From assembly GCA_030426785.1 (NCBI GenBank), contig JAUHXY010000012.1, forward strand, positions 1 to 34,002: a stretch of DNA of 34,002 nt. The letters are read 5' to 3'. The number at the start of each line of letters is the position of its first letter. Positions within the stretch are counted from its first letter, which is position 1. The position numbers were made by a program, and so were the translations under genes. This document shows positions 2 to 23,611 of the stretch, in pieces. Source of the DNA: a bacterium. GTDB taxonomy: Bacteria; Planctomycetota; UBA1135; GCA-002686595. The notes under the pieces are model-generated. The model was not told the DNA's origin and ran no database searches. It saw only the letters and a program-made list of their open reading frames with translations.

Positions 2-295
2 GCCAACAGCAAGATGGCGGCCATGGCTAAGTGCTTCGCCACCGACGTGGCTATGGAGGTCGCCACCGACGCGGTGCAGGTCTTCGGCGGATACGGCTTC
101 ATGGAGGACTACCCGATCGCCAAGTTCTTCCGCGATGCCAAGATCCTCTCGATCTACGAAGGCACCAACCAAATTCAGCGTTTGGTCATCGCCCGCCACA
201 TGATCCGTGAGGCGGCCGAGCTGGACCACCTGCAGGAGTACATTCCCACCGAGACCCAACAGCCCTACTACGAGGGCGAACCGGCCAACGCCTAA
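2..295 (+). CDS. acyl-CoA dehydrogenase, C-terminal part (5' end outside window)
   Basis: Open frame from the window edge; [40 protein letters not shown] is the typical acyl-CoA dehydrogenase C-terminal signature. Confidence 0.93.
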
Positions 296-328
296 GGGTT
301 TCCAACTAGGCCCCGAGCTGGGGGCCGC

Positions 329-369
329 CGCGCGGGCGGGAGTGGGGGAGTCCCGCTCTCGCCCGCGCG
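329..369 (+). terminator. strong hairpin downstream of the acyl-CoA dehydrogenase gene, probable terminator
   Basis: cgcgcgggcg (329-338) pairs perfectly with cgcccgcgcg (360-369); the stem extends inward with G.U wobbles; T-containing sequence follows but no clean U-tract directly after the stem. Confidence 0.5.
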
Positions 370-548
370 TTCGGTTCGGGGGGGTTTTCCCGCTCTTTCT
401 TTTCGGCCCGTCGTCCCCGCGGTGGGCCGCTTCCATTGCCTGCGACTCGACTGTAAATGCGACTTCGAAGCGGGGTCGATTTGTAAGGGAGGAGTAAGGG
501 CTGAATCCCCTGTTATCGGCCCTGCGAACCCCTAGATGCCTGACAAGC

Positions 549-1895: not shown

Positions 1896-1936
1896 GCGGG
1901 GGGTGCGCTAGATGGCGCGCCCCCCGCGTTGTTTGG
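1896..1936 (+). terminator. intrinsic terminator-like hairpin after the sigma factor gene
   Basis: gcggggggtgcgc (1896-1908) pairs with gcgcgccccccgc (1915-1927) with one G.U, followed by gttgtttgg. Confidence 0.6.
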
Positions 1937-2057
1937 CCCTTTGCACGCCCTTAGTGGGTCCTGTTCCCGTCCGTTTTCCGGCGGCCGGGAAGCCCACCGG
2001 CGTAGAGCCAGACCCCCCGATCTGTTACCCTCCTCGGCTGGCTTCGCCGCATCGATC

Positions 2058-3107
2058 ATGTCTCAGCCCCCTCCCCCCAGCACACCGATTGACTTCGCGG
2101 CGGACCCCGTGGCGAAGCCCGGGTCCGTGCCGACCTCCGACCGTCGCTCCCAGGGGTCGACGGCGAAAGGCGTGGAGGGTCGCAAGCCCACCTGGTTGAA
2201 GGTGCCGTTGCCGGGCGGAGACGGCTACGCCAAGCTCAAAACCTTGGCCCGCGACCTCAACCTGCACACGGTTTGCGAAGAGGCCCGTTGTCCGAACATC
2301 GGCGAGTGTTGGAAAGGCGATCACGCCACCATGACTTTGATGGTGCTCGGGGACGAGTGCACCCGCCGCTGTCGTTTTTGCGCGGTGAAGACCGTGCAGA
2401 AGGCGGCTCCGCCCGATCCGCAGGAGCCCCAAAACGTGGGGCGCGCGGTCGGAGCGATGGATCTGGGTTACGTGGTGATCACGAGCGTCGACCGGGACGA
2501 TTTGGCCGATGGTGGCAGCGCTCACTATGCGGCCTGCATCGAAGCGATCCGCGAGCACTCCCCGCGCACCGTCGTCGAGACTTTGATCCCCGACTACCGC
2601 GGCAGCGACCTCGCAACTTTGATGGCCGCCCGGCCGGACGTGCTGGCCCACAACGTGGAAGTCGTCTCGCGCCTACAGCGCCGCATTCGCGATCCGCGCT
2701 GCAGCTACGAGCGTTCCCTCGAAACCCTGGTGCAAGCCAAGCAGCACTACCCGGGTGTTTTTACCAAGTCCTCCCTGATGGTCGGATTGGGCGAAACCGA
2801 AGAGGAGGTGCGTTTGGCCTTGCAGCTTCTGCGGGACGCGGACGTGGACTTCGTCACCCTCGGCCAGTATCTGCGCCCCACGCCGCAGCACGCTCCCGTG
2901 CGCGCCTGGATCACGCCCGAACAATTCATGGATTACGAGATCATGGGGCGCGACATGGGTTTCGCCTATGTGGCCTCCGGTCCGCTCGTGCGCTCGAGCT
3001 ACAAGGCGGGAGAATTCTTCGCCGCCCGCTTGGTGCAACAACGCCGCGCCCAAGAAGAACGCAACCAAAGCCCAGCCGGCAATCCTCCCTTCCAACCCCG
3101 ACCGTAA
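2058..3107 (+). CDS. lipA: lipoyl synthase
   Basis: Radical SAM motif CTRRCRFCAV, N-terminal cysteine motif CEEARCPNIGECW, and VITSVDRDDLADGG, LMVGLGETEEEV, YLRPTPQHAPV, VASGPLVRSSYKAGEFF. Start at MSQPPPP (2058) is an estimate. Confidence 0.97.
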   Translation: MSQPPPPSTPIDFAADPVAKPGSVPTSDRRSQGSTAKGVEGRKPTWLKVPLPGGDGYAKLKTLARDLNLHTVCEEARCPNIGECWKGDHATMTLMVLGDECTRRCRFCAVKTVQKAAPPDPQEPQNVGRAVGAMDLGYVVITSVDRDDLADGGSAHYAACIEAIREHSPRTVVETLIPDYRGSDLATLMAARPDVLAHNVEVVSRLQRRIRDPRCSYERSLETLVQAKQHYPGVFTKSSLMVGLGETEEEVRLALQLLRDADVDFVTLGQYLRPTPQHAPVRAWITPEQFMDYEIMGRDMGFAYVASGPLVRSSYKAGEFFAARLVQQRRAQEERNQSPAGNPPFQPRP

Positions 3108-3143
3108 CGCCCCGCCCCTTTCCTCGCGGGGAAAGGCCTTCGC

Positions 3144-4271
3144 ATGCAAACCACTCAGTCCACCGAACCCTTCCGCGTGATCTCCGGCGACGGAAGCGTG
3201 GGCAACCACCAAGTTGCCTTGACCGACGAGCAGTTGGTCCACTGTTACCGCACGATGTTGACCGTGCGCGCCTTCGACGACGTGTGCATGAAGCTGCAAC
3301 GCTCGGGCCGTATCGGGTTTTCGGTGCCCAACAAGGGGGTTGAGGCCTGTCAAGTGGGTGCGGCCAGCGCCCTGCGCCAGACCGACTTCTTCTTCCCGAG
3401 CTACCGCGACTTCGGTATGGCCCTGTACCACGGGGTGCAGCCGGTCGAGATGATGCACAACATGTTCGGCAACGCGAAGGACTCCGCGCTGGGCCGGCAG
3501 ATGCCCGTGCACTTCTCCTTTGTCGAGCCGATCAAGTTCTTTTCGATCTCCTCGCCCATCGGTACGCACCTGCCGCAAGCGGTGGGCGCGGCCCGCGCGT
3601 TCCAAATGCGCGGCGAAGATCACGTGGCGCTCGTCAGCTTTGGCGACGGCGGCACCTCGAGCCTCGGATTTCACAGCGCTTTGAACTTCGCGGGCGTTTG
3701 GAAGGCTCCGGTCATCTTCTTGTGCCAAAACAACGGCTGGGCGATCTCCTGCCCGGCCGAAGAGCAAACCGCTTCCGACGGTTTCGCCATCAAAGGCCAG
3801 GCTTACGGCGTCCCTGGGATCAAAGTCGACGGCAACGATGTGCTCGCTATGCATCAAGCGGTGAGCGAAGCCGCGGAGCGCGCCCGCCGCGGCGAAGGCC
3901 CGACTTTGATCGAAGCGGTGACCTACCGCATGGGCGGCCACTCGACCTCCGACGATCCCTCCAAGTACGTGCCCAAGGAAATCTTGGACCAATGGGCCGA
4001 GAAGGATCCGGTGCAACGGTTCCAAAGCTTCTTGAAGCAAAAGGGCCTGTGGTCGGAATCCTTGGAAGCCGACCTGACGCGCGAAGCCACCGAAGGCATT
4101 TCGGCCGCCGCCAAGGAAGCCGAAGCGACCGGTGCTCCCGGCCTCGAAACCATCTTCTCCGACGTGTACGCCGAACTGCCCGCGCACCTCCGCGCGCAAG
4201 GCGAAGCCGCGTTCGACCTGGCGCGCCGCAAGGGCAGCGCCGATGCCGGCGACGGCGCTTTCCCCCTCTAA
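3144..4271 (+). CDS. thiamine pyrophosphate-dependent 2-oxoacid dehydrogenase E1 component, alpha subunit (PDH/BCKDH-like)
   Basis: TPP-binding motif GDGGTSSLGFHSALNFAGVWKAPVIFLCQNN; phosphorylation-loop region YRMGGHSTSDDPSKY. Confidence 0.94.
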   Translation: MQTTQSTEPFRVISGDGSVGNHQVALTDEQLVHCYRTMLTVRAFDDVCMKLQRSGRIGFSVPNKGVEACQVGAASALRQTDFFFPSYRDFGMALYHGVQPVEMMHNMFGNAKDSALGRQMPVHFSFVEPIKFFSISSPIGTHLPQAVGAARAFQMRGEDHVALVSFGDGGTSSLGFHSALNFAGVWKAPVIFLCQNNGWAISCPAEEQTASDGFAIKGQAYGVPGIKVDGNDVLAMHQAVSEAAERARRGEGPTLIEAVTYRMGGHSTSDDPSKYVPKEILDQWAEKDPVQRFQSFLKQKGLWSESLEADLTREATEGISAAAKEAEATGAPGLETIFSDVYAELPAHLRAQGEAAFDLARRKGSADAGDGAFPL

Positions 4272-4339
4272 GCCAACCCGTCAGCTGCCCCCTTCCTCAG
4301 CGAACCCTCTGCCTTAGCGCGCTTCCCCACGCACCCTCC

Positions 4340-5314
4340 ATGCCCACCCTCACTCTCATCCAAGCCGTCAACGACGGCCTCAAAGTCGCCATGCGCCAGG
4401 ACGAGTCCGTATTGGTCTTCGGCGAGGACGTCGGCCCGAAAGGCGGCGTGTTCTTGGCGACCGAAGGTCTCACCGCGGAATTCGGGAAGGAGCGCTGTTT
4501 CGACACGCCCTTGTCGGAAGACGGCATCGTCGGCACGGCCATCGGCATGGCGGCGAACGGCCTGCGCCCGGTCTGCGAGATTCAGTTCCAAGACTTCATC
4601 TTTCCGGCCTTCGACCAGATCGTGTCGGAGGCGGCGAAGCTGCGCTACCGCTCGGGCGGTCAGTACACCGCCCCCATGGTGATCCGCACGCCCTACGGTG
4701 GCGGTATCCGCGGCGGTCTGTACCACAGCCAATCCGGCGAGGCGTACTTCACCCACACCGCGGGCCTCAAGGTCGTCATCCCGTCCACGCCTTACGACGC
4801 GAAAGGCTTGTTGCTCGCTTCCATCGCAGATCCGGACCCGGTGCTCTTCATGGAGCCCAAGGCCCTCTACCGCCACCTGAAGGCCGACGTGCCCGAAGGC
4901 CACTACACGGTCGACCTCTCCACCTTGCGCCAAGTGCGCGAAGGGGACGACGTGACCGTGTTCTGCTACGGCTCGATGGTTCCGGTGGTGGAAAAGGCCG
5001 CCAACAAGGCTGCGGAACAAGGCATCCACTGCCAAGTGGTCGACCTGCGCACCCTGTTGCCCCTCGACGAGCAAGGCGTGCTAGAAGCGGCCCGCAAGAC
5101 CGGCCGGGTGGTCGTGGTGCACGAAGCGCCGCGCTTCTGCGGATACGGCGCCGAGATCAGCGCCATCATCGCCGAGAACATCATCGAATACATGGAAGCC
5201 CCGATCCGCCGCGTGACCGGCTTCGACACCCCGTTCCCGAACACCCTCGAACATCACTACCTGCCCGACGAACGCCGGGTCCTCGACGCGATCGAAGAAG
5301 TCGCGAAGTACTAG
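4340..5314 (+). CDS. 2-oxoacid dehydrogenase E1 component, beta subunit
   Basis: VFGEDVGPKGGVFLATEGL, FDTPLSEDGIVGTAIGMA, FIFPAFDQIVSEAAKLRYRSGG, VVVVHEAPRFCGYGAEI. Starts at MPTLTLIQAVNDGL inside the longer ORF that begins at 3698. Confidence 0.95.
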   Translation: MPTLTLIQAVNDGLKVAMRQDESVLVFGEDVGPKGGVFLATEGLTAEFGKERCFDTPLSEDGIVGTAIGMAANGLRPVCEIQFQDFIFPAFDQIVSEAAKLRYRSGGQYTAPMVIRTPYGGGIRGGLYHSQSGEAYFTHTAGLKVVIPSTPYDAKGLLLASIADPDPVLFMEPKALYRHLKADVPEGHYTVDLSTLRQVREGDDVTVFCYGSMVPVVEKAANKAAEQGIHCQVVDLRTLLPLDEQGVLEAARKTGRVVVVHEAPRFCGYGAEISAIIAENIIEYMEAPIRRVTGFDTPFPNTLEHHYLPDERRVLDAIEEVAKY

Positions 5315-5339
5315 AACCCCTAGCACCACCATCATCCCA

Positions 5340-6971
5340 ATGATCGAATTCAAACTCCCCGACATCGGCGAGGGCGTGGCCGAAGGCGAAATCGTGCAAT
5401 GGCTCGTGAAAGAAGGCGACCAGGTCGAAGAGCACCAGCCGGTGGTCGAGGTCATGACCGACAAAGCCACCGTGGAAGTGCCTGCGCCCGCCGCGGGCGT
5501 GGTGAGCAAGTTCCTGGCCCAGGAAGGTGACACCATTCCGGTGGGGGACGTGATCTTCCATCTGGACAACGGCGCCGGCGGCGCGGCCCCTGCACCCGCT
5601 CAGGAGTCGGCTCCCGCACCGGCAGAAGCCCCTGCGGAGGCTCCGGCGGCGAGCGCGAACGGCAGCGTCCCCTCGGGCGGCGGCCAAACCATCGAGTTCA
5701 AGCTGCCCGACATCGGGGAAGGCGTGGCCGAAGGGGAAATCGTGCAGTGGCTCGTCGAAGAAGGCGCGTCCGTGCAAGAGCACGACCCCGTCGTCGAGGT
5801 CATGACCGACAAAGCCACGGTGGAAGTGCCCGCGCCCGTGAGCGGCACCATCGTGAAGCACTTAGCGGCAGCTGGCGATACCGTGCCGGTCGGCAGCGTG
5901 ATCTTCCACCTGGCCACGGCTGGCGGTGGCGCGGCGGCGCCCGCGAGCGCAGCGGCACCGGCCGCTCCCGCGCCGGCGGCCCCGTCCCACAGCGCGCCCA
6001 GCGCCGCTCCTTCGGCGCCCATTCAGCGCCCGGGCGGCAAGGTCCTCGCCGTGCCCAGCGCGCGCCGCGTGGCGCGCGAGATGGGCATCGACTTGGCGCA
6101 AGTGCCCGGTTCGGGTAACAACGGCGTGATCCGTCGCGCTGACGTGGAAGCCTTCGCCAAGAACGGCGGTGGCGCGGCGGCTGCGGCTGCCCCCGCAGCT
6201 CCCGCAGCGGCCAGTACTCCGACGGCTTCGCAAGCTCCGGCTCCCGCTTGGCAACCTCCCTCGAAGGAGGAGATTCGTGTGCCCTTCCGCGGCGTGCGCC
6301 GCAAGATCGGCGAAGCGATGGTGCGCTCGAAGTTCACCGCGCCGCACTTCACCGTCGTCGAAGAGGTCGACGTGACCGAGTTGGTCAAGGTGCGCGAGGT
6401 GGCCAAAGCCATCGGTGCCAAGCAGGGCATCAAAGTGACCTACATGCCCTTCATCATGAAGGCGGTGGCGAACTGCTTGATGCGCAACCGTATGTTGAAC
6501 GGCTACTTCGACGAAGCGGGTGGTGAAATCATTCAGCCCGGCCAGGTGAACTTGGGCATCGCGACCGACACGCCCAACGGTCTCATCGTACCCGTCATCC
6601 CGAGCGCGGAAACCAAGAGCATGTTGGAGCTGGCCGCCGAACTACAAGGGTTGGCCGAGCGCACCAAAGCGGGCAAGGTCAAGCCGCAGGAACTGAAGGG
6701 TTCAACGTTCAGCATCACCAACGCAGGCAACATCGGCGGCACGATCGCTACTCCGATCATCAATCACCCCGAGATCGCGATCCTGGGCGTGCACCGCATC
6801 GTCAAGCGCCCCGGCGTGGTCGAAGGACCCGACGGAGATCGCATCGAAGTGCGTCAATACATGAACTTCTCGTGCAGTGTGGATCACCGTTTGGCCGACG
6901 GCGCCGATGGCGCGCGCTTCTTGGCGGATCTGCGCCTCGTGCTCGAAAACCCGGGCTTGATCTCCCTGTAG
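5340..6971 (+). CDS. 2-oxoacid dehydrogenase E2 component (dihydrolipoamide acyltransferase) with two lipoyl domains
   Basis: Two EVMTDKATVEVPAP lipoylation motifs, Ala/Pro linkers, peripheral subunit-binding domain (AVPSARRVAREMGIDLAQVPGSGNNGVIRRADV), catalytic DHRLADG. Confidence 0.96.
   Translation: MIEFKLPDIGEGVAEGEIVQWLVKEGDQVEEHQPVVEVMTDKATVEVPAPAAGVVSKFLAQEGDTIPVGDVIFHLDNGAGGAAPAPAQESAPAPAEAPAEAPAASANGSVPSGGGQTIEFKLPDIGEGVAEGEIVQWLVEEGASVQEHDPVVEVMTDKATVEVPAPVSGTIVKHLAAAGDTVPVGSVIFHLATAGGGAAAPASAAAPAAPAPAAPSHSAPSAAPSAPIQRPGGKVLAVPSARRVAREMGIDLAQVPGSGNNGVIRRADVEAFAKNGGGAAAAAAPAAPAAASTPTASQAPAPAWQPPSKEEIRVPFRGVRRKIGEAMVRSKFTAPHFTVVEEVDVTELVKVREVAKAIGAKQGIKVTYMPFIMKAVANCLMRNRMLNGYFDEAGGEIIQPGQVNLGIATDTPNGLIVPVIPSAETKSMLELAAELQGLAERTKAGKVKPQELKGSTFSITNAGNIGGTIATPIINHPEIAILGVHRIVKRPGVVEGPDGDRIEVRQYMNFSCSVDHRLADGADGARFLADLRLVLENPGLISL
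5343..5920 (+). repeat. internal duplication encoding the tandem lipoyl domains (copies start near 5343 and 5691)
   Basis: atcgaattcaaactccccgacatcggcgagggcgtggccgaaggcgaaatcgtgcaatgg versus atcgagttcaagctgcccgacatcggggaaggcgtggccgaaggggaaatcgtgcagtgg; both copies contain gtcatgaccgacaaagccac. Confidence 0.85.
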
Positions 6972-7014
6972 CCTCGCGTCACCGCTCCCGTCTCCCTCGA
7001 CCCGCTTCGCGCCC

Positions 7015-8124
7015 GTGCCCCAGTTGATCCAACTGATCGATCCGCAAGGCCAGGTCCTCGGCGAACTGCCGGACCTGTCCGCGGACCGGCTGAAAGAGCT
7101 ATTCGTGCACATGCTGCGCGTGCGGGTGACCGATGGCCGCATGCTGACCTTGCAACGCGCAGGGCGCATCGGTTTTGTCGGCACTTCGACAGGGATGGAA
7201 GCTTCCCAGATCGGCTCGGCTGCGGCGCTCCAACCGCAGGACTGGCTGTGGTCGGGTTTGCGCGAGGGGGGCGCGGCGGTCATGCGCGGCCTGCCGCTCT
7301 CCGAATACGTGGCGCAGATGTACTGCAACGCCAACGACACGGCGAAAGGGCGGCAGATGTGCAACCACTTCCAGCACAAGGGGTCCCATTACCCGAGCTG
7401 GTCGTCGGTGATCGGCACGCAGATCCCTCACGGCGTGGGGGCGGCCCTGGCCAGCCAGCGGCGCGGTGAAGACGCGGTGCACGCGATCTACTTCGGAGAC
7501 GGTGCCACCTCGAGCAACGGTTTCCACAGCGGCATGAACTTCGCCGCCGTTTGGAAGGTTCCGGCGGTGTTCGTGTGCGTTAACAATGGCTGGGCCATTT
7601 CGGTTTCGGCCAAGCAACAAACGGCGGCAGAGTCCTACGCCCACAAAGCGAGTGCCTACGGCATGCCCGCGGCGCGCGTGGACGGCAACGATTTGTTGGC
7701 TTGTTATGCCACCATGCAGGCTGCGGTGGCCCGGGCCCGCTCGGGCGAAGGTCCCAGCTTGGTCGTGTTGGAGACCTACCGCATGATGGGGCACTCCTCG
7801 AGCGACGACCCGAGCAAGTACCGCGACGAGGCCGAGGTGGAACACTGGCGCACGCGCGATCCGATCGCGCGCTTTGAGCAGTATCTGCTCGCCAATCAAA
7901 TCCTAGAAGACGGTGAGCGTGCCACGATCGAGGCGACCTTGACCGCCGAAATCGATCGCGTCATCCACGAACAGGAGAGCGCCGATCCGATGGCGCTGAA
8001 GACCCTGGTGGAGGACGTGTACGCCGATGTGCCCAACCACCTGAAACGTCAGTACAACGACTTCATCGAAGTCGCCGAGCGCCATGGAGATGCCCAGCCG
8101 GGCGACGGCGCTTTCCCCCTCTAA
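7015..8124 (+). CDS. second 2-oxoacid dehydrogenase E1 alpha subunit paralogue (GTG start)
   Basis: GDGATSSNGFHSGMNFAAVWKVPAVFVCVNN and YRMMGHSSSDDPSKY; C-terminal GDGAFPL identical to the first E1-alpha. Confidence 0.92.
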   Translation: MPQLIQLIDPQGQVLGELPDLSADRLKELFVHMLRVRVTDGRMLTLQRAGRIGFVGTSTGMEASQIGSAAALQPQDWLWSGLREGGAAVMRGLPLSEYVAQMYCNANDTAKGRQMCNHFQHKGSHYPSWSSVIGTQIPHGVGAALASQRRGEDAVHAIYFGDGATSSNGFHSGMNFAAVWKVPAVFVCVNNGWAISVSAKQQTAAESYAHKASAYGMPAARVDGNDLLACYATMQAAVARARSGEGPSLVVLETYRMMGHSSSDDPSKYRDEAEVEHWRTRDPIARFEQYLLANQILEDGERATIEATLTAEIDRVIHEQESADPMALKTLVEDVYADVPNHLKRQYNDFIEVAERHGDAQPGDGAFPL

Positions 8125-8157
8125 GTCCCAGCACCGAGCCCTTCCGGGCTCAACCCT

Positions 8158-9570
8158 ATGAGCACTCCCCGCAAAGTTGTCGTCATTGGAGCCGGTCCGG
8201 CAGGTTACGTCTGCGCCATTCGTTTGGCGCAGCTCGGCCAAGAGGTCACGGTGGTGGAAAAGGAGTTCCTCGGGGGCACCTGCTTGAACGTGGGCTGCAT
8301 TCCCTCGAAGGCGCTCATCGCGGCCGGCAGCCTGATGGACAAACTGGCCCACGCCAGCGCCATGGGCATCACCGCGGAAAACGTCAAGCTCGACGTGCAC
8401 CAACTGGTGGAGTGGAAGCAGGGCATCGTTGGCAAGCTGACCGGCGGTGTGGGCGGATTGCTCAAGAACCACGGCTGCAAAGTCATCATGGGCAGCGCCA
8501 GTCTGGTCTCGAAGAACCAGGTCAAAGTGAAGTCGAGCTCGGGCGAAGAAACCTTGCAAGCTGACGACATCGTCATCGCCACCGGCTCGATCCCGATCGA
8601 AATCCCGGGGTTCGCCTTCGACGAAAAGGACGTGTGGTCCTCCACCGGTGCTCTCGCGCCCGAGAAGATCCCCGGACACATCGTGGTGATCGGAGGCGGT
8701 TACATCGGCCTCGAACTTGGCATGATGTACCGCAAGCTGGGCAGCCAGGTCACCGTCTTGGAAGCCACCGGCGGTGCCTTACCGGGGCAGGAGCGCGATT
8801 GCGTCAAGCAGATCGAGCGCAGCCTGAAGAAGCAGAAGATCAAACTGATGACCGAAACCTTTGCGCAAGGCTACGAGCGCAAGGGCGACAAACTGCTCGT
8901 CAACGTCAAGACCAGCAAAGGCAACGAAACCGTCGAGTGCGACCAAATCCTGTCCACCGTCGGCCGGCGCCCGTACAGCGAAGGCTTAGGCCTCGAAAAC
9001 GCCGGCCTGAAAGTGACCGAGCGCGGTTTCTTGCAGGTCGATAAGCAGATGCGCACGAGCGTTCCGAACATCTACGCGATCGGTGACATCGCTGGGCAAC
9101 CCATGCTGGCTCACAAGGGCAGCAAGGAAGGCCTCGTCGCCGCCGCGGTGATCGCGGGACAACCGGAGGAGTACGACGTGCGCTGCGTGCCTGCGGTCAT
9201 CTTCACCGCCCCGGAGATGGCTTCGGTGGGTCTGACCACCGAAGAGTGCGAGGAAAAGGGCCTCTCGATCGTCAGCGGTCAATTCCCGTTCGCTGCCTCG
9301 GGTCGCGCGATGAGCCTGATGGAAACGGACGGCTTCGTGAAGATCATCTCCGACGCAGAAACCGACGAGGTGCTCGGCGTACACATGGTGGGTCCCGAAG
9401 TGACCGAATTGATCGCGGAGGCGGCCTTGGCCATCGAGATGGGCGCCACCACCGAAGACATCGCGCGCACCATCCATGCCCACCCGACCTTGCCCGAGGC
9501 GATGATGGAGGCCGCGGAGGCCGTGCACCACATGGCCGTGCACATCTACCAAAAGCCGAAGGGCCGTTAG
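8158..9570 (+). CDS. lpdA: dihydrolipoyl dehydrogenase (E3)
   Basis: Redox-active GGTCLNVGCIPSKAL, FAD motif GAGPAGYVCAIRLAQLG, second dinucleotide motif GGGYIGLELG, C-terminal HAHPTLPEAMMEA. Confidence 0.97.
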   Translation: MSTPRKVVVIGAGPAGYVCAIRLAQLGQEVTVVEKEFLGGTCLNVGCIPSKALIAAGSLMDKLAHASAMGITAENVKLDVHQLVEWKQGIVGKLTGGVGGLLKNHGCKVIMGSASLVSKNQVKVKSSSGEETLQADDIVIATGSIPIEIPGFAFDEKDVWSSTGALAPEKIPGHIVVIGGGYIGLELGMMYRKLGSQVTVLEATGGALPGQERDCVKQIERSLKKQKIKLMTETFAQGYERKGDKLLVNVKTSKGNETVECDQILSTVGRRPYSEGLGLENAGLKVTERGFLQVDKQMRTSVPNIYAIGDIAGQPMLAHKGSKEGLVAAAVIAGQPEEYDVRCVPAVIFTAPEMASVGLTTEECEEKGLSIVSGQFPFAASGRAMSLMETDGFVKIISDAETDEVLGVHMVGPEVTELIAEAALAIEMGATTEDIARTIHAHPTLPEAMMEAAEAVHHMAVHIYQKPKGR

Positions 9571-9579
9571 GCCTATCCC

Positions 9580-10233
9580 ATGGGTTCCGTCCTGATCGTG
9601 TGTCCGCTGGGGCGGCGACCCTATGGGGAGATCCACGCACTGCAGCAGGAACTCTTGCGCGATCGCATCGCGGAGAAGATTCCCGACACCCTACTGTTGG
9701 TTGAGCACGACGAGGTCGTGACCCTGGGCCGGGGCACCCCGGACGGGGCGGCGGATGCGGTTTCGGTCCCCGTCGTGCCCGTAGAGCGCGGTGGCGAGGC
9801 GACTTATCACGGTCCGGGCCAGATGGTCGCTTATCCGATTCGCTACCTGCCGGAAGGGCAACGGGACCTGCATGCCTATTTGCGGCAGCTCGAGCAGGTC
9901 ATGATCGACGTGTTGGCGGAGCATGGCGTCGAGGGTCGGCGAGAACCCGGCAAGACCGGGGTTTGGATCGAATCGAAGAAGGTTGCCTCGATCGGGGTGG
10001 CCGTGCGCCGGTGGGTTACCTGGCATGGAGTGGCCCTCAACGGGACCACAGCGCTCGAAGCGTTCCGCGACTTTCAGCCCTGCGGACTGTCCTCGGAAGT
10101 CATGACGCGCTTGGCGGATCACTCCACGAGGCCTTGTGATCCGGAAGCTCTGGGCGAGCAATTCCGCTCTCACTTCGCCAAGCGCTTCGGTTATTCGATG
10201 GTGGAAATTCGTTCCGACCAGGGCTCAGACTGA
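9580..10233 (+). CDS. lipB: octanoyltransferase (lipoate biosynthesis)
   Basis: GGEATYHGPGQMVAYPIRYL, KTGVWI..KKVASIGVAVRRWVTWHGVALN. Confidence 0.95.
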   Translation: MGSVLIVCPLGRRPYGEIHALQQELLRDRIAEKIPDTLLLVEHDEVVTLGRGTPDGAADAVSVPVVPVERGGEATYHGPGQMVAYPIRYLPEGQRDLHAYLRQLEQVMIDVLAEHGVEGRREPGKTGVWIESKKVASIGVAVRRWVTWHGVALNGTTALEAFRDFQPCGLSSEVMTRLADHSTRPCDPEALGEQFRSHFAKRFGYSMVEIRSDQGSD

Positions 10234-10579
10234 GCGAAAAGCAGCCCACTTGCGGCACCGGAGAAACGGCTCGTCTCGGTTTGCGATACGAGACACCGAA
10301 AGCGCTCACTTGCTCTAAGTCAGCATCAGATTCGAATCCTCGGGCACCGAAGAAAGCGGGGTCACTGCCCCTGTAGAGCCGACCCGAAACGCGGTCGGAA
10401 CCCCCGATGTCTCTTCCTGCCCCGTCCGTTGCCCTACGTCGCACCCGAGTTTTGCGGGTCGATTGCGGCGCGGAGAGAGACCGCGGCTCGCGGGTGCGTG
10501 GCGTCCTGAGAGGGAAACCAACCGTCCACGAAATCCGCTGGGAGCCCACGCCGAGCGGTCTGCTGCCCTGGAGCTCGCA

Positions 10580-12598
10580 TTGAACGTCAACACTTTCGAA
10601 GAGATCAAACTCACCGGTAACCTGCCTTCCCCAGCCGGCGTCGGAGTCCGCATCCTGGAGCTCACACGCTCCGAGGAATACAGCGTCGATGACATGGGCG
10701 CTGCGATCATGACGGACCCGTCCCTGACCGGGCGCATCCTGCAGTTGGCCAACACCGGAGAACGCACGGGATCCAAGCCCGCGACGACGGTGGAAGAAGC
10801 CATCATGCGACTCGGGAGTCGCATGGTGCGCGACCTGGCTCTCGCGTTTTCGTTGGTCTCGGAACGTAGCACGGGTGCCTGCCAGGCCTTCGACTACGAG
10901 CAATACTGGTCGGCTTCGTTGGGCCGAGCGGTCAGCGCCCAGATCATCGCGCGTCGACTGGGAGAGAAGCGCCCCGAAGAGGCCTACATCTGCGGCCTGG
11001 TTGGCGACGTGGGACGTTTGGCCCTGGCTTCGGTCTACGCCGACTCCTACGGCAAGCTGCTGACGACCTGCCACTACTGCACCTTGGACGAGCTGATCGT
11101 CAAGGAAAACGAAGTCTTCAAAATCGATCACGCACAGATCGGGCGCTTCATGTTGCTGGACTGGGGTTTGCCCGACCTATTCTGCGACGCCTCTCTCAAA
11201 TACGCTTCCGAGCGTTCCTTGAAGAACCTGCAAGAGATCGAAGATCTGGCCGACATGCTGCGCGTGGGCTATTGGATCGGCGAGGCACTCGTCACCAGCG
11301 AGGATGCGCCCCCGTACTCCTGGCGCGTGATTGGCGATGAGTTGAAGCATGCGATGCGCTTGCTGGATATGAACGAAGCCCAATTCACTTCGTTTGCCAA
11401 CAGTTGCTCGAAAGAGTGGGTCATGTGGGGCAAAGCCTTCGACGTCTCCACCGGTGACGGCCAGAAGTTTCAAGACGTCTTCCGCTGGGTCGCGGAGCAT
11501 TGCCAAGCCGAACGACCCTCCGAAGCCGGTGCTGAGGATCTTGTTGTGGTTTCCACGGAAGCTACGTCCTCGACCAAGGCTGAGACCCCGAAAGCACCGA
11601 CCCCAAAAGAACGTCCAGCGAACGCGGTCCGCGTGATCGCGATCGGTCCGAACGCGATCGCGGCGGCACAAGGATGGGAAACCACCGCTCCGGATGGCTA
11701 CGAATTCCAATACGTCACAACGAGCGAGCAAGGCATGAAGGTGACCCTGAAGTGGGGCGCCGACATCGTCCTGGCCGACGAAAAGATGGATCAGCTCGAT
11801 GGGGTGCAGATCTGCAAGAGTCTGCGCAGCAACGATCTCGGATCGAGCTTGTACTTGATTGTGGTGGGACAATCTCCCTCCAAGAGTCGCGGTTTGGCGG
11901 CCTTCGCGGCTGGTGCGGACGACTTTGTCGAGTTGCCCAGCCCCTTGGAGGTGCTCGGTGCGCGCATCGCTGCCGGTGGCCGCGTCGTGGCCCTGCAACG
12001 CCGGGTGGAGCGCGACAAAGCCACCATGATGCGCCAAGTGGCGGAACTGGGCGTGCTCACGCGCAAGTTGCGTGCGACCGCTCTGACCGACGCGCTCACC
12101 GAGTTGCCCAACCGTCGCTACGCCATGAAACGGCTCGAAAGCGAGTGGTCTTCCACCAAGCGCACCGGGCGTCCCATCAGCGTTGTGATGCTCGATGTGG
12201 ATCACTTCAAAAGCGTCAACGACACGTTTGGCCACGACGTGGGCGATGAGGTCCTGAAAGAAACCGCAAAGATCATCCAGTCCTCGATTCGCACGTCCGA
12301 TGAAGCTTGCCGGATCGGCGGCGAGGAGTTCGTCGTGATCTGCAAAAACACCGACGAGCACGATGCTGCAGTGGTGGCCGAACGCATTCGTTCCGCTCTG
12401 GAGGAGCACATCATCCAGGCGGGGGGAATGAATCGTCCAGTCACCGCGAGCCTAGGCGTCGCCGGATACGTCCAGAACATGGCGATGGTCGCCGAACTGC
12501 TCAAGCAGGCCGACGAAGCTGTCTACGAAGCGAAGCGCCGCGGCCGAAACCAATGGGTCTTGTCCAGCGATGTAGAGAAGCTCCGCAAGAGCGCCTAA
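10580..12598 (+). CDS. HDOD - degenerate receiver - GGDEF protein (putative diguanylate cyclase)
   Basis: N-terminal HDOD-like region (LPSPAGVGVRILELT...DPSLTGRILQLANT), receiver-like middle, GGDEF domain with RIGGEEF and upstream RxxD (RTSD). Proposed TTG start aligns with the paralogue N-terminus and has GGAG upstream; the ORF track extends to 10463. Confidence 0.85.
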   Translation: MNVNTFEEIKLTGNLPSPAGVGVRILELTRSEEYSVDDMGAAIMTDPSLTGRILQLANTGERTGSKPATTVEEAIMRLGSRMVRDLALAFSLVSERSTGACQAFDYEQYWSASLGRAVSAQIIARRLGEKRPEEAYICGLVGDVGRLALASVYADSYGKLLTTCHYCTLDELIVKENEVFKIDHAQIGRFMLLDWGLPDLFCDASLKYASERSLKNLQEIEDLADMLRVGYWIGEALVTSEDAPPYSWRVIGDELKHAMRLLDMNEAQFTSFANSCSKEWVMWGKAFDVSTGDGQKFQDVFRWVAEHCQAERPSEAGAEDLVVVSTEATSSTKAETPKAPTPKERPANAVRVIAIGPNAIAAAQGWETTAPDGYEFQYVTTSEQGMKVTLKWGADIVLADEKMDQLDGVQICKSLRSNDLGSSLYLIVVGQSPSKSRGLAAFAAGADDFVELPSPLEVLGARIAAGGRVVALQRRVERDKATMMRQVAELGVLTRKLRATALTDALTELPNRRYAMKRLESEWSSTKRTGRPISVVMLDVDHFKSVNDTFGHDVGDEVLKETAKIIQSSIRTSDEACRIGGEEFVVICKNTDEHDAAVVAERIRSALEEHIIQAGGMNRPVTASLGVAGYVQNMAMVAELLKQADEAVYEAKRRGRNQWVLSSDVEKLRKSA

Positions 12599-12626
12599 TC
12601 CCAAACCCCACCGCAAGGTTCCCCGC

Positions 12627-14672
12627 GTGATTCAAAAGCGATTCGACGAAATCCGGCTCACTGGAGCCCTCCCTTCGCCCTCCGCGATTGGTCTACGCAT
12701 TCTAGAGCTCACGCAGGATGAGAATTACGAGCAAGCGGACCTGATCCAGACGATCATGGCCGACCCGGCCTTGACCGGTCGCGTGCTGCAGATGGCGAAC
12801 AGCGCGTTGCACGGCGGCGGCATGCCGATCGAGACGGTGCGCGAGGCTTCCATGCGCCTGGGTTCGAAAGCGCTGCGGGCTTTAGCGCTCGGATTTTCCC
12901 TGGTGGAGCAAAAGGGCTCGGGCCCCGTGGGTGGCTTAGACCACCACGCGTTTTGGTCCCGTTCTCTCGCCACAGCGGTGGCGACCAGCGTCCTGTCCTA
13001 CGAGTGTCGCGCCTGGTCTCCGGCCGAAGCCTTTACCTGCGGGCTCCTGGCGGATATCGGAAAACTGGCCTTCGCCAACCTGTACCCCCAGAAGTACGAG
13101 CGCTTCATGAACCTGCCGCTCGCCTTCCACGATTGGCGTTTGGCGAAGCTCGAGTCGTGCGCGTTTGGCGTCAACCACGCCGAGGTCGCTAGTCTGATGA
13201 TGGAGGATTGGGGCCTCTCGCGAGCCCTGAATTACGCGGCGCTGCACGTGATCAACAAACCCACGGGTCCCATGCCCAAGGCGTCCGACGGAGGGGCGGA
13301 ATCCCTCACGCGGGTGCTACGCGCGGGTCGCGCCATCGCGGACGTGTTGACCCTCGATCGCGACACCGGCGAAAAGCTGTGGTTGCCAGCGTTCTTCCGT
13401 CTGGAGCAAATCGCGGAGGAGATCGAAGTGCCGGTGGAGCAGCTCTACCGGCTCGGGAACCAAATCGTGCCGGCTTGGCAAGAGTGGGGTGCCTTGTTGG
13501 GGGTGCCTTCCGGCCAGGCCCTCGATTTCGAAGTCGTGGCCCAAGAACTCTCTACCGCTGGCGTTACGGCGAAAGAAGATCCCGCCACGGTGGAGCCCAG
13601 CGAAGCGCAGTGCAACGACCTGCGCGAAATGGCCGGAGAGGAACCGCAAGCCGCGGAAGAGGTGCGCGCCGAAGAATCGGATGACTCCGCCACCCGCGTG
13701 CTGCTGATCGACGATGATGAGCAAATGCTGCGGCTCCTAAGCCACTACCTGCAGCGCGCCGGCTTCGAAGTCGCCACTGCGGATACCCCCAGGGACGGGC
13801 TGCGCAAAGCGGTTTCGCTGATGCCGCACATCGTGGTGACCGACTGGATGATGCCGGGCATGACGGGGATCGAACTGTGTCGCGCCTTGCGCGAAACGCC
13901 GGCCGGCAAGCGCATGTACGTGCTGCTCGTCACCGCGCGCGGTGACGACACCCAGGTGCTCGAAGCCTTCGATGCGGGCGCGGACGACTACATCGTCAAG
14001 CCCTTCAACCCGCGCATCCTGGTCGCCCGCGTGCGCGCGGGCCAGCGGGCCGTCGAGATGCGTCAGAAGGTCGAATCGTCGGAGAAACTCCAGCAGCGCC
14101 AGATCGCCCACATGGCCATCATGACGCGCAAGTTGCGCCAAGCGGCGCTGACAGACGTGCTCACCAACCTTCCCAACCGTCGCTACGGCATGAACCGTTT
14201 GCAGGAGGAGTGGGAAAACGCCACCCGCATGCAGCGTCCCATTTCGGTGGCGATGATGGACATCGACTTCTTCAAACGCGTCAACGATCAATACGGCCAC
14301 GACGCAGGGGATGCGGTGCTCGTCCATTGTGCCGAAGTCTTGCGCAACGGAGTGCGCCGCGGGGACGTGCTGGCCCGTTTGGGCGGTGAAGAATTCCTGC
14401 TGATCCACGTGGGGGCGACGCTGGAAGAGGCGCGCAAGACGGTCGAACGCCTGCGCACCGCGGTGGAGGAGATCGTGATCAAGCATCACCCCGAAGAGTT
14501 GCGCATCACCATGAGCTTCGGTGTGGCCGAACGCAGTCCGGATCACGAGACGATCGACGACCTGATGAAAGACGCGGACAACGCGCTCTACCAGGCCAAA
14601 GAACAGGGCCGCAACCGCGTCGTCCTGCACCGCCCCGCGCCCCCGGACGGGGAACTGCGCAAGGGCGCCTAG
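12627..14672 (+). CDS. HDOD - receiver - GGDEF response regulator (putative diguanylate cyclase), GTG start
   Basis: HDOD-like N-terminus paralogous to the previous gene; canonical receiver VLLIDDDEQ...VVTDWMMPGMTG...LVTARGD...GADDYIVKPF; GGDEF with RLGGEEF and RRGD I-site. Confidence 0.93.
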   Translation: MIQKRFDEIRLTGALPSPSAIGLRILELTQDENYEQADLIQTIMADPALTGRVLQMANSALHGGGMPIETVREASMRLGSKALRALALGFSLVEQKGSGPVGGLDHHAFWSRSLATAVATSVLSYECRAWSPAEAFTCGLLADIGKLAFANLYPQKYERFMNLPLAFHDWRLAKLESCAFGVNHAEVASLMMEDWGLSRALNYAALHVINKPTGPMPKASDGGAESLTRVLRAGRAIADVLTLDRDTGEKLWLPAFFRLEQIAEEIEVPVEQLYRLGNQIVPAWQEWGALLGVPSGQALDFEVVAQELSTAGVTAKEDPATVEPSEAQCNDLREMAGEEPQAAEEVRAEESDDSATRVLLIDDDEQMLRLLSHYLQRAGFEVATADTPRDGLRKAVSLMPHIVVTDWMMPGMTGIELCRALRETPAGKRMYVLLVTARGDDTQVLEAFDAGADDYIVKPFNPRILVARVRAGQRAVEMRQKVESSEKLQQRQIAHMAIMTRKLRQAALTDVLTNLPNRRYGMNRLQEEWENATRMQRPISVAMMDIDFFKRVNDQYGHDAGDAVLVHCAEVLRNGVRRGDVLARLGGEEFLLIHVGATLEEARKTVERLRTAVEEIVIKHHPEELRITMSFGVAERSPDHETIDDLMKDADNALYQAKEQGRNRVVLHRPAPPDGELRKGA

Positions 14673-14901: not shown

Positions 14902-17900
14902 CTATTGGCGCACCTTGTGGTGCTTGTCGTGTAGGCGTTTGGCCTTGGAGACCCAGCGCTCCTTCTTGATGCGGTCGAGGGGCACGTCGATCTTTTCGGC
15001 GAGCAGTTCGAGCTTGCGCGGCGTGTCGACGGCCGCGAGGCGCTTGAAGGTGGTGATGCCCGCGTCTTCCAAGAGCTTGGCGTAGCTCGGACCGATCCCG
15101 GTGATCTCCTGTAGGTTGTCCTTGGCGGCAGGCCGCTTGGTCGCGGCTTTCTTGCTGCTCGCCTTCTTGGCGGTCGTTTTTCGGGCGGCGGTCGAAGTGC
15201 TCTTGGCCTTCTTGGCGCTGGCCTTGGAGGTGCTGGCTTTCTTGGGGCTCGCCTGCTTCGTCTTCGCCGGAGCAGCGGCCTCTTGGACAGCCGTAGCGCC
15301 GGACGAACTCGCCGCAGCGGAGCCTGAAGGAGCACTCGGCTTCGAGCTCTCCGTTTTGGGCTTCGTGCTCGCCTGGGCCGGACCTTCCAACTTGCGCTGC
15401 AAGCGGGCGATTTCCGCCTCGCGCAAGCGCACCGTCTTCTCGGCTTGCTTCGCCTGACGTGTGAGATCTTTCACCTTGAGCTCGTAGCCGGTCATCTGCG
15501 TGTGCGCCGACTTCAGCTTCTGCTCGACCTGGTGCAGCTTGAGCTGCCCGGCGCGGTGCTGGGTGGCCATGGCACTGCTTTGGGTCTTGGCCTTGGCCAT
15601 CTCCTCCTTCAGCTCCTGGCTTTGGGCCTTGAGGATCTCGATCTTCTGGTCGCGGTTTTCGCACATGCGCTGGGCTTTGGCGAGTTCGCGTTCGACGCTC
15701 TGCAGCGTCTTCTTGCCGTCTTTGAGGGCGGATTCCTTTTCCGCGAGTTGCGCGCGTTCCGTTTCCAATTCGGCGAGCAGCTTGGCCCGTTCGCTTTCGC
15801 TTTGGGTCTCCAGCCCTTCGAGCTCTTGCTTGGCTTCCACCAAATGGGTTTCGGTGCGCTCGATGCGCTCAGGCAGGATGGAGAGGTGCGAGACCTGCGA
15901 GCGCAGGGTCTCGATTTCGCTCTGCAACGACTCGACCTGAGCGTCCCGCTCCTTGAGCAGGGCCGGCAGGGGCTCCAGTTCAAAGACCCGTTGGCGCAGG
16001 CTTGAGATCTCTTCCTTCGAAGAATCGCCTTGCTCTTGCACGCGTTCGGTGAGCAAACGCACTTCCGCTTCGCGCTCGGCCAACTGCAACTGCTTGGGTT
16101 CCAATTCGCTCAAACGCTTTTGGAGATCGGCGATTTGCTTGCGCGAAGAATCGCCCAAGTTCTTGAGCTCCGCCTTCCAGGCCTTGGCCTGGGTTTCGGA
16201 CGCGGCCAGCTTGGCTTCGAGCGGGGCCACGCGCTTGGCTTGGGCGCGCAGTTCCTTGATCTCGGCCCCGGTGCTCTCCTGCAACATGGCGAGCTTGGTC
16301 TGGGCTTCCTCCAAGGACTTTTCGCGCTGCGCCAATTGCGCCGGCAGGGGATCGAGCTGCTCGAGGCGACTCTGCATTTGGGCCATCTCCATGGCCTGTT
16401 GCTCCTGGCTGCGGTCCAAGCTGCTGCTGAGCTGCTGGACGGCGGCACGCGACTCGTTGAGCTCCTTTTCGAGGGGCTCCAAAGCTTGCACGCGCTCCTG
16501 CAGTTTGCGCACGGTGTTGGTGCGTTCTTCCGCCAATTCGTCGTAGCGCTCGCGCAGGTCGGTCAATTGGGCTTCCGCCTCGGCGCATTGCTCTTCGAAC
16601 GGCTCCAGTTCGACCAAACGCTTCTCCAAGGCCGCAATCTGCTTGGTGGTTTCGAGTTGCACCTCCTGCAGGGTGGCTTGCGTGCCTTGTAGTTCTGAGC
16701 TGGTGGACTGGGCGCGTTGCTCGAACGGCTCGAGATAACCGACGCGCTTTTGCAGGGCTTCGATCTGCTCGCGGCTCGTGCTTTGCAGCTCCTGCAATGC
16801 GGCCTGCGTGCTCGCTAACTCTTCGGCCGTCTCCTGTGCCTCGAGCTGGAAGGGTTCCAGTGCGTTCACCCGTTCTTGCAGTTCCGCGATGCTGGTTTGG
16901 CTGACCCGTTCCAGTTCGGCGTGTTGGCTCTGTAAGGTTTGCAGCGCCGTCTGCGTCTCCTTGGCCCGCGCTTCGAACGGCGCCAATTGCTTCACCTGCT
17001 GCTCGAGCTTCGCGATCGTCGCTTGGCTTTCGCGCTGCAGAGTCTCGTGCTCCTTGCGCAGGGCGCGCAATGCCCCTTGAGACTCCGTCGCGCGCGACTC
17101 GAACGGCGCCAGCTTGGAAACGCGTTGCTCCAAGGTCGCGACGGCGGACTGGTGCTTTTGCAACAAAGCCTTGTGCTCGCCCTGCAGGGAATGCAACTCG
17201 GTACGGGTCTTAGAGAGCTGGCTCTCGAGGGGTTCGAGCACCGCCACGCGCGAAGACAACTCGCGCACCTGCTGCTCGCTCTCCTTCTGCAGGTTTTGGT
17301 GAGCGCGGCTCAGGTCCGCGAGGGCGCGCGAGCGCTGCTCCAACTGCTCGGGCATCGGGCGCAGGTTGCGCATGCGCTCGTGGAACCATGTGGTTTGGGT
17401 CTGAGTGCGGTCGAAGAGCATCTGGTGCTTGCGCCGCAGGTCGGCCAGCTCGCGGCTGCGGGCTTCCAGTTCCTTGGGCAGGCGGCTCATGTTCTCGAGC
17501 TGCTCTTCCTTCTCCTTGAGCTGCACGATTTCCCGGGCTTGCTGCGCGACCTCTTCGCGGGCCTCCTCCAAGCGCGCCTCCAGGTCATCACGCTCCCGGG
17601 AAAGCTCCCGGAACACGTTGGACTTGCGCTTCGACTCGCCGGAGGCCGCCTCGACCTGGTTTTGCAGGGCGACGACCTTCTTGCGCAGGTCGGCGGTGGT
17701 GTTCTCGCGCTGCTGGAGGCTGAGCTCCAGTTGCTTTTTGAGGGCTCCCGAGTCCTGCAGGGTCTGCTGCAGCTCGGCGATCTTGGCCACGTGTCCCTCG
17801 AAGGTGGCCTTGATCTTGCGCACCTCGATGTTGTTTTGGTTGAGGGCTGCGACCGCGGCCTCGCGGTCCGCTTCCGCCAAACGGAACTTGCGGTCCCACA

Positions 17901-18006
17901 ACTCCTGCTGCACGCGGCGCGTGCGGGTGTTGCGCTGGAGTTGGAACAGGTGCCACGTGAAGCCCCCAAGCAGGACCCCTCCCAGGATCAAGAATAGTTC
18001 TTGCAT
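14902..18006 (-). CDS. membrane-anchored coiled-coil repeat protein with H1-like basic linker and C-terminal helix-hairpin-helix domain
   Basis: N-terminal hydrophobic segment LFLILGGVLLGGFTWHLF; long heptad-rich region; Lys/Ala/Ser-rich tract (KTKQASPKKASTSKASAKKAKSTSTAARKTTAKKASSKKAATKRPAAK); C-terminal LQEITGIGPSYAKLLEDAGITTFKRLA of HhH type. Confidence 0.9.
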   Translation of the reverse strand: MQELFLILGGVLLGGFTWHLFQLQRNTRTRRVQQELWDRKFRLAEADREAAVAALNQNNIEVRKIKATFEGHVAKIAELQQTLQDSGALKKQLELSLQQRENTTADLRKKVVALQNQVEAASGESKRKSNVFRELSRERDDLEARLEEAREEVAQQAREIVQLKEKEEQLENMSRLPKELEARSRELADLRRKHQMLFDRTQTQTTWFHERMRNLRPMPEQLEQRSRALADLSRAHQNLQKESEQQVRELSSRVAVLEPLESQLSKTRTELHSLQGEHKALLQKHQSAVATLEQRVSKLAPFESRATESQGALRALRKEHETLQRESQATIAKLEQQVKQLAPFEARAKETQTALQTLQSQHAELERVSQTSIAELQERVNALEPFQLEAQETAEELASTQAALQELQSTSREQIEALQKRVGYLEPFEQRAQSTSSELQGTQATLQEVQLETTKQIAALEKRLVELEPFEEQCAEAEAQLTDLRERYDELAEERTNTVRKLQERVQALEPLEKELNESRAAVQQLSSSLDRSQEQQAMEMAQMQSRLEQLDPLPAQLAQREKSLEEAQTKLAMLQESTGAEIKELRAQAKRVAPLEAKLAASETQAKAWKAELKNLGDSSRKQIADLQKRLSELEPKQLQLAEREAEVRLLTERVQEQGDSSKEEISSLRQRVFELEPLPALLKERDAQVESLQSEIETLRSQVSHLSILPERIERTETHLVEAKQELEGLETQSESERAKLLAELETERAQLAEKESALKDGKKTLQSVERELAKAQRMCENRDQKIEILKAQSQELKEEMAKAKTQSSAMATQHRAGQLKLHQVEQKLKSAHTQMTGYELKVKDLTRQAKQAEKTVRLREAEIARLQRKLEGPAQASTKPKTESSKPSAPSGSAAASSSGATAVQEAAAPAKTKQASPKKASTSKASAKKAKSTSTAARKTTAKKASSKKAATKRPAAKDNLQEITGIGPSYAKLLEDAGITTFKRLAAVDTPRKLELLAEKIDVPLDRIKKERWVSKAKRLHDKHHKVRQ
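15979..17490 (-). repeat. twelve consecutive 42-codon (126-bp) units encoding the coiled-coil repeats
   Basis: Counted by hand from residue 173 to 676: units start MSRLPKEL, LRPMPEQL, LEPLESQL, LAPFESRA, LAPFEARA, LEPFQLEA, LEPFEQRA, LEPFEEQC, LEPLEKEL, LDPLPAQL, VAPLEAKL, LEPKQLQL, each 42 residues. A truncated unit (LEPLPALL..., 31 aa) follows. Confidence 0.9.
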
Positions 18007-22123: not shown

Positions 22124-23611
22124 ATGAGCGCCGCCCCTTCGTTTCGCAAATCCGCCGCCGTCATGGTCGTGCGGTCGACCGACCGCGGTGCGGAAGTGTT
22201 GCTCGTGCAGCGCAACCCGAAGCTGCGCTTCTTTGGCGGCTACTGGGCGTTCCCCGGAGGCGTGGCGGACCGCATGCCGGATGGCGGACGGGAGGACTTC
22301 CTCACCTGCGCCGCGCGGGAGTTGTTCGAAGAAACGGGCCTGCACTTTGCCCCCGAGTTGCGCGCTCTGTCCCCCGCGCACCGCACCGCGCTGCGCCGAC
22401 GATTGCTGGAAGAGGAGGGCTCTGCAGCGCGACCGACCGTCGCTTGGCACGTCGACGCCCCGCTGCAACCCCTGGGACAACTGCGCACCCCCGCGTTCGC
22501 GCCGGTTCGCTATCGCACCCAGTTCTATCGTTGCGATCTGCCCCCTGGGCAAGAGCCCGAGATTTGGCCAGGAGAGCTCGCTGCCGCCGAGTTCGTCGGT
22601 GTGGAGAAGGTGCTGGCGCAGTGGCGCCGGGGCGAACGTTTGATCGTACCGCCCGTGCGCACTCTGCTCGAGTGTTGGCACGAGGCCGGTGCAGAGGCCT
22701 TCGCGGAGCACGCCCGTGTGCGTTGCGAGGCGTTTGAGTCCGGGGCGATCGCTCCGATCATGAATTCTCCGGGCATCTGCATGATTCCGTTGCGCACCCC
22801 GACCGTGCCACCTGCGACGACCACCAACCACTATTTGGTGGGGCACGAGCGTTTGGTCTTGATCGATCCCGGCACGCCTTATCCCGAGGAGCAAGCGCGC
22901 TTGATGGGATTCCTCGACGAGCGCATCGCGCGCGGAGCTCGGTTCGAAGCCTTGGTGCTGACCCATCGCCACCACGATCACGTGGCCGCCGTGCCCGCCT
23001 TGGAGCGGCGCTACGGAGTGCCCGTTCTCGCCCACGCGGATACTCTGGCCCAACTACCGTTTGCGGTGCAGCGTCCCGTGGAGTGCCACGACGGGCAGCG
23101 CATCGAACTTGGCGCCGCACCCGACGGGTCTCCCCATTGGGCGCTGGTGGCGCTGCACACGCCGGGGCACGCTGCTGGGCACTTCGTCTTCCGGGATACG
23201 CGCTACGGGGCCATGCTGGGCGGGGATTTGGCTTCCACCATGTCGACGATCGTGATCGAGCCGCCGGAAGGTCACCTCGCGACCTATCTGGACAGTTTGC
23301 AGCGGGCTATCGACGCCAAGCCGGGCTTGTTTTACCCGGCTCACGGCCCCGTGGCCCGGGATGGCGTGGCGTTGCTGCGCGGATACCTGCAGCACCGACG
23401 GGTGCGGGAGGAGCGTTTGGTGGCGCTGCTAGCCGACCGCGCTTGGGAGGACGAACAGGAATTGGTCGAGGCGGTGTACACCGACGTGGCGCCGGAGGTG
23501 CACGGTTTGGCGCTGCATTCCCTGCGTGCGGGTTTGATCAAGTTGGAGGAAGAGGGCCGCGCGAGGCGTGGGGAACGGGGTTGGGTCGGGGTTGGCGAGG
23601 GGGCTGCCTAG
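22124..23611 (+). CDS. Nudix hydrolase - metallo-beta-lactamase fusion protein
   Basis: Nudix region GGYWAFPGGVADRM...REDFLTCAARELFEETGL; MBL motifs THRHHDHVAAV, HTPGHAAGHFVF, LGGDLAS, and a LACTB2-like C-terminal tail. Confidence 0.88.
   Translation: MSAAPSFRKSAAVMVVRSTDRGAEVLLVQRNPKLRFFGGYWAFPGGVADRMPDGGREDFLTCAARELFEETGLHFAPELRALSPAHRTALRRRLLEEEGSAARPTVAWHVDAPLQPLGQLRTPAFAPVRYRTQFYRCDLPPGQEPEIWPGELAAAEFVGVEKVLAQWRRGERLIVPPVRTLLECWHEAGAEAFAEHARVRCEAFESGAIAPIMNSPGICMIPLRTPTVPPATTTNHYLVGHERLVLIDPGTPYPEEQARLMGFLDERIARGARFEALVLTHRHHDHVAAVPALERRYGVPVLAHADTLAQLPFAVQRPVECHDGQRIELGAAPDGSPHWALVALHTPGHAAGHFVFRDTRYGAMLGGDLASTMSTIVIEPPEGHLATYLDSLQRAIDAKPGLFYPAHGPVARDGVALLRGYLQHRRVREERLVALLADRAWEDEQELVEAVYTDVAPEVHGLALHSLRAGLIKLEEEGRARRGERGWVGVGEGAA

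Follow-up and report, generated by a model that had tools for sequence, protein, structure and literature searches.

Proline-punctuated 42-residue units in a predicted membrane-anchored coiled-coil protein of the Saltatorellus family

What keeps a bacterial coiled coil at a period of exactly 42 residues while its sequence diverges, and what could such a protein do? The question is raised by a planctomycete gene in a window of 34,002 nucleotides, which is the whole stretch of DNA analysed here (contig JAUHXY010000012.1 of assembly GCA_030426785.1). The initial annotation of this gene described twelve back-to-back units of 42 residues, each taken as six heptads and nearly all with a proline at position 3. 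It proposed that the prolines would kink or segment the coiled coil and that selection acts on the spacing of the units.

The gene and its array of 42-residue units

The gene was assigned on the basis of its open reading frame, of orthologues with the same architecture and of the neighbouring HrpB gene. It encodes a predicted single-pass membrane protein with the following layout.

14902..18006, minus strand: whole gene; open reading frame of 1034 aa, predicted single-pass membrane coiled-coil protein
17941..18000, minus strand: predicted N-terminal transmembrane helix, residues ~3-22, GG-rich (from the sequence and conserved N-terminal alignments)
17491..17934, minus strand: N-terminal coil, residues 25-172, with the family signature RRVQQELWDRKFRLAEADREAAVAALNQNN (from alignments)
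15979..17490, minus strand: twelve 42-aa units, residues 173-676; unit 1 with proline at position 5, units 2-12 with L/V-x-P at positions 1-3
15886..15978, minus strand: unit 13, residues 677-707, 31 aa; 11-aa deletion relative to the orthologues of genomes G001 and G002
15391..15885, minus strand: terminal LSILP unit and C-terminal coil, residues 708-872
15121..15390, minus strand: basic tail rich in K/A/P/S, residues 873-962, pI 10.9
14905..15120, minus strand: putative C-terminal helix-hairpin-helix (HhH) domain with a GIGPSYA hairpin, residues 963-1034

No lysine or arginine precedes the transmembrane helix, which is followed by the stretch RNTRTRR. By the positive-inside rule, the C-terminal part of the protein is predicted to be cytoplasmic. 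A Pfam scan of the 1034-aa protein returned no family above its cut-off, and an NCBIfam scan returned matches to the coil or the tail only, all far under cut-off; neither collection gave a match to any cytoskeletal family. Furthermore, the phage collection searched contained no match to the protein. An SMC/Rad50 annotation was rejected, as Pfam gave no SMC match and the NCBIfam matches were confined to the coil (79.7 bits vs a cut-off of 567 bits). The likeness to SMC/Rad50 is thus one of weak coil-only profile matches, and the planctomycete protein has neither ATPase heads nor a hinge.

The count of twelve exact units held, as positions 15979-17490 on the minus strand comprise 12 x 126 bp in frame. 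Proline occupies position 3 in 11 of the 11 units after the first, and unit 1 (MSRLPKEL...) carries it at position 5, as annotated. The 42-residue period was also recovered from the self-similarity of the protein, which peaked at lags 42, 168, 84 and 126. The score at lag 42 was 1.45 vs a null of 0.205 ± 0.085 (z = 14.6) obtained from 2000 shuffles that preserved the heptad register; the shuffle maximum was at most 0.65 at any lag, and none of the shuffles reached half of the observed score. Shuffling of whole heptad blocks gave z = 13.4 at the same lag. Amino-acid identity among the units averages 28% (19-52%), and the DNA of adjacent units is 31-61% identical. Tandem Repeats Finder did not detect the 126-bp array in the DNA because the units are too diverged.

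The array was found to run beyond the end first given for it, since a matching unit 13 follows the twelve exact units and is itself followed by a terminal unit opening with L-S-x-L-P (LSILP). The 31-residue unit 13 had been read as an 11-residue deletion. Comparison with orthologues bears this out: those of G001 and G002, which belong to the same genus, keep the full 42 aa at this place, and when either is aligned with the window protein the latter has a gap of 11 aa.

Core phase and the unit proline

Large hydrophobic residues of the window units occupy positions 1, 4, 8, 15, 18, 22, 25, 33, 36 and 40, and position 29 is mostly S, T or A across the units of the family. This pattern departs from a regular heptad core, which would be spaced 3-4-3-4 throughout: successive core positions are twice four residues apart at 25-29-33 (a 4-4 step) and twice three residues apart at 40-43-46 (a 3-3 step, centred on L-x-P-L). 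The two phase steps cancel, leaving 12 core steps per 42 residues and an average of 3.5. Therefore, the description of each unit as six heptads is right as a sum or an average, and fails for the unit itself, in which one 3-3 and one 4-4 step interrupt the heptad.

Proline is normally disfavoured in coils. In this family, P3 carries more information than any other column of the unit (3.56 bits) and is present in 81% of family units. It is also the most conserved site between orthologues (85 of 87 units, 98%, vs a unit mean of 66%), the other conserved unit sites being L1 (97%) and L8 (92%). To model the junctions, AlphaFold was given five units together with 21 aligned repeats and orthologues. 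The model is one helix spanning residues 4-221 of 222, unbroken across the five junction prolines, with a mean pLDDT of 90.8 and no marked drop at internal junctions; single-chain coil predictions are biased toward long helices, and a monomer model from AlphaFold is no proof of a rod or of a dimer. Segmentation of the coil by the prolines is thus unsupported, because the model passes through them as one uninterrupted helix at a pLDDT of about 91.

Distribution and length changes across the family

A single-sequence search of genome contigs gave no matches, and an alignment of the N-terminal region was needed to find relatives. With an N-terminal profile, the protein was found in 38 of the 81 genomes from the GTDB family to which the window belongs, and with a broader profile in 40 of the 81. 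This Planctomycetota family is that of Saltatorellus ferox Poly30 ('Planctomycetes bacterium Poly30'). In the rest of the order, the broader profile gave only one marginal match (E 3.7e-4). Orthologues were accepted on the N-terminal profile together with the conserved HrpB neighbour wherever the flank sufficed. In most related loci by far, the coil gene has a divergently transcribed neighbour encoding the HrpB helicase, and DUF1499 often lies between the two; among the loci without HrpB are short contigs that extend barely or not at all beyond the coil gene in that direction. This synteny supports orthology, and the neighbours DUF1499 and HrpB offer no functional link. In 12 profile-negative genomes of the family, inspection of the region upstream of HrpB revealed no coiled-coil gene. 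A match in the unit search outside the family (G322) was a false positive, a chemotaxis-type protein. In another family of the phylum, locus L134 (G392:C188) encodes a coil, a basic linker and the same HhH C-terminus, with no clear 42-residue period.

The window also contains, on the plus strand, a NUDIX domain fused to a metallo-beta-lactamase and BLACT_WH (22124-23611), which lies near HrpB in several related genomes. Two adjacent paralogues with HDOD, response-regulator and GGDEF domains are found at 10463-14672 (+), the receiver of the first gene being a weaker, partial match. A 2-oxoacid dehydrogenase cluster at 1929-10233 (+) comprises two E1 genes, one on each side of a double-lipoyl E2 gene, together with an E3 and with genes resembling lipoyl synthase and lipoyl ligase.

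An iterated, ungapped 42-column profile found 258 units in the family, and 162 of 224 successive gaps were exactly 42. This spacing recurs in many genera. The array is shared by most orthologues, in which about 5-21 units were detected, and lag 42 was the best lag in most members, above shuffles. Two same-genus relatives have more units than the window protein and G004, a relative from another genus, has fewer, while G011 and G008 are members without a 42-residue array. One same-genus orthologue of 1342 aa (L012, 1249-5274) contains near-identical recent 42-aa copies and runs of N, and its unit count is uncertain.

Comparison of unit length among orthologues showed that 42 is not the sole spacing. 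In G061 (L067; G061:C526), the spacing is 42 aa twice and then 49 aa six times, each unit opening with L-E-P or L-K-P. Unit length can therefore shift by a heptad and spread through duplication, as has apparently happened in this lineage. A Saltatorellus subclade has composite spacings of 71 and 66 aa, and the difference in length between its members amounts to exactly one block of 71 aa. Uniformity within arrays must be due in part to duplication of units. We do not claim that all variant lengths (24, 31, 38, 49 and 53) preserve phase; nearly half of integers qualify, and 29 and 33 misfit.

We observed a strong difference between the coil and the tail in how length changes. Across 14 close orthologue pairs, 21% of 9,775 aligned coil positions are substituted, and the coil length differences are 210, 84, 84, 71, 91, 38 and one compound 7/36, where 210 equals 5 x 42 (divided by the aligner into 28+182) and 71 is a single event present in two pairs. 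In the basic tail of the same pairs, 28% of 1,110 positions are substituted and 16 indels of 1-16 aa were counted; the pairs share events, so that the indel counts are not independent, and the contrast between coil and tail is nonetheless large. Nearly all coil indels between close orthologues are whole units.

The idea that spacing is under constraint thus gains support, with coil changes essentially unit-sized against the 16 small indels of the tail and with 42 recurring across genera. Whole-unit changes alone could be obtained by unequal recombination; it is the lack of 1-6 aa indels in the aligned coils that indicates selection. Depletion of indels within coiled coils has a precedent in synaptonemal-complex proteins, whose sequence likewise diverges while length is kept (PMC8598163). 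Those coils keep their total length, whereas that of the planctomycete rod varies in whole 42-aa steps. The planctomycete coil adds to this precedent in that the length changes it does show nearly always comprise complete repeat units.

The basic tail and a possible membrane-anchored rod

A basic C-terminal segment is present in 32 of the 32 members examined (pI 9.3-12.0). The HhH domain occurs in many members and is missing from several orthologues and some genera; the transmembrane helix and the basic C-terminus are kept even in orthologues that lack it. Its identification combines a sub-threshold Pfam HHH_5 match (20.1 bits vs a cut-off of 27), an alignment in which the GIGP hairpin is conserved, a model submitted to fold search, and profile matches to PDB entries. 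HhH profile matches were to the RadA N-terminal region (E 3.8e-6) and to HhH segments of DNA polymerase beta and ribosomal L32e, and the best PDB profile matches were the complex I 41-kd subunit and the reaction-centre O chain. The fold search ranked RadA N-terminal best (probability 0.99, E 0.33), with E-values that are non-significant (>0.1).

The tail most likely binds nucleic acid. The complex I and reaction-centre accessory subunits are the closest solved relatives of the HhH domain, and in such complexes a domain of this kind does not necessarily bind DNA. Family models of L21, NuoE and the phasin PhaH match the same K/A-rich linker and HhH tail at the C-terminus; in the planctomycete protein this module ends a membrane coiled-coil rod, and its HhH part is dispensable in some genera. 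A further HhH protein is encoded in the same genome (L010; G000:C7, about 230-510, minus strand), with an acidic E/V-rich stretch preceding the domain.

The period could simply be the relic of tandem duplication of a segment that happened to be six heptads long, maintained by the generic selection against phase breaks that acts on coils, with no special role for 42, for the prolines or for rod length. We consider this account possible, if on balance unlikely. The known depletion of indels in other coiled coils (PMC8598163) fits it, as do the freely varying unit number, the near-identical recent copies in G002, and the 49-aa units of one orthologue and the 71- and 66-aa spacings of one clade, which show that 42 is not obligatory. 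A mere relic fits poorly with a proline that is better conserved than any other residue of the unit and has the highest information content of all positions, and the conserved non-heptad phase pattern is not expected of a plain heptad relic. It is far less probable that each unit forms a separate helix, with a turn at each proline and the helices folded back on one another in bundles like those of spectrin or EzrA. The fixed place of the proline in each unit and the length of a 42-aa helix, about right for bundle repeats, would suit such a fold. However, the model is one 218-residue helix with no break at five junctions (subject to the single-chain bias), the core hydrophobics run on across the junction (L40, L1, L4), and Pfam gave no spectrin or EzrA match.

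A filament-forming cytoskeletal scaffold of the FilP/Scy or crescentin-like type, membrane-attached and with lateral registration set by the 42-aa repeat, perhaps tied to the cell-shape changes of Saltatorellus, appears doubtful. The length of the coil, its low identity, its periodicity and its regular phase shifts would be in keeping with it, as would the occurrence of the protein in a family with members described as shapeshifting (PMC11481906). Against this, only 40 of the 81 family genomes have the protein, the Pfam and NCBIfam scans gave no cytoskeletal match, and the conserved basic tail and HhH domain suggest nucleic acid rather than self-assembly. Scy has a 51-residue repeat. More generally, scaffolds of the FilP/Scy/DivIVA type have regular non-heptad coils with hendecads (PMC9858780), and the planctomycete protein resembles them as a long bacterial coiled coil departing regularly from the heptad. 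It differs from them in its period of 42, the prolines at the phase shift, the transmembrane anchor and the basic tail.

The streptococcal M protein offers another comparison. It is an extracellular protein of rod architecture, anchored to the wall at its C-terminus. Its C-repeats are units of 35-42 aa in a coiled coil (PMC4911098), and the likeness thus lies in tandem units of this size in the alpha-helical coiled coil of a membrane- or wall-attached rod. In contrast, the planctomycete protein is predicted to be membrane-anchored at its N-terminus and is probably cytoplasmic, with one conserved proline per unit and a basic or HhH-containing tail; no sequence match between the two was found. 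In a literature search for a 42-residue coiled-coil repeat, the M protein was the only case found, and no description was found of this planctomycete family or of a coil repeat of 42 aa in which a proline is invariant.

Taken together, the architecture, the periodicity, the conservation of proline and spacing, the unit-wise change in length and the continuous model helix lead us to favor a cytoplasmic, membrane-anchored rod with a basic, probably nucleic-acid-binding tail, which could link the membrane to the nucleoid as a spacer or tether of adjustable length (probability about 0.5). The rod is well supported, while the tether, like the topology, the oligomeric state and the nucleic-acid binding, is what we infer from these features. 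In such a rod, the single N-terminal helix would sit in the inner membrane, and the long coil would project into the cytoplasm, probably as a parallel coiled coil. Its 42-residue units would lie in fixed phase, each spanning about 6.2 nm if the helix is straight. At the L-x-P-L start of each unit, two three-residue core steps would coincide with the proline, and the 4-4 step near position 29 would compensate for them, so that the same helical face returns after exactly 42 residues. Gain or loss of whole units would then alter the length of the rod, which would carry the basic, often HhH-containing tail and hold it off the membrane.

A more specific proposal, which we put forward tentatively and regard as rather unlikely, is that the rod is a clade-specific membrane-to-nucleoid ruler, whose reach is given by the number of proline-punctuated, self-compensating phase-shift modules of 42 residues and is tuned in ~6 nm steps with the coil undisturbed. 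If this were true, evolution would tune the distance between membrane and nucleoid without disturbing the coil. It is unusual, and open to test, that the best conserved residue of a coil should be a proline, placed at a short core spacing that another part of the unit offsets. Furthermore, the family provides a natural series of rods, with about 5 to 21 detected units, suited to testing coiled-coil length as a molecular ruler. The cell biology of the Saltatorellus clade is largely unexplained, and the protein is also a candidate for a structural component of these cells.
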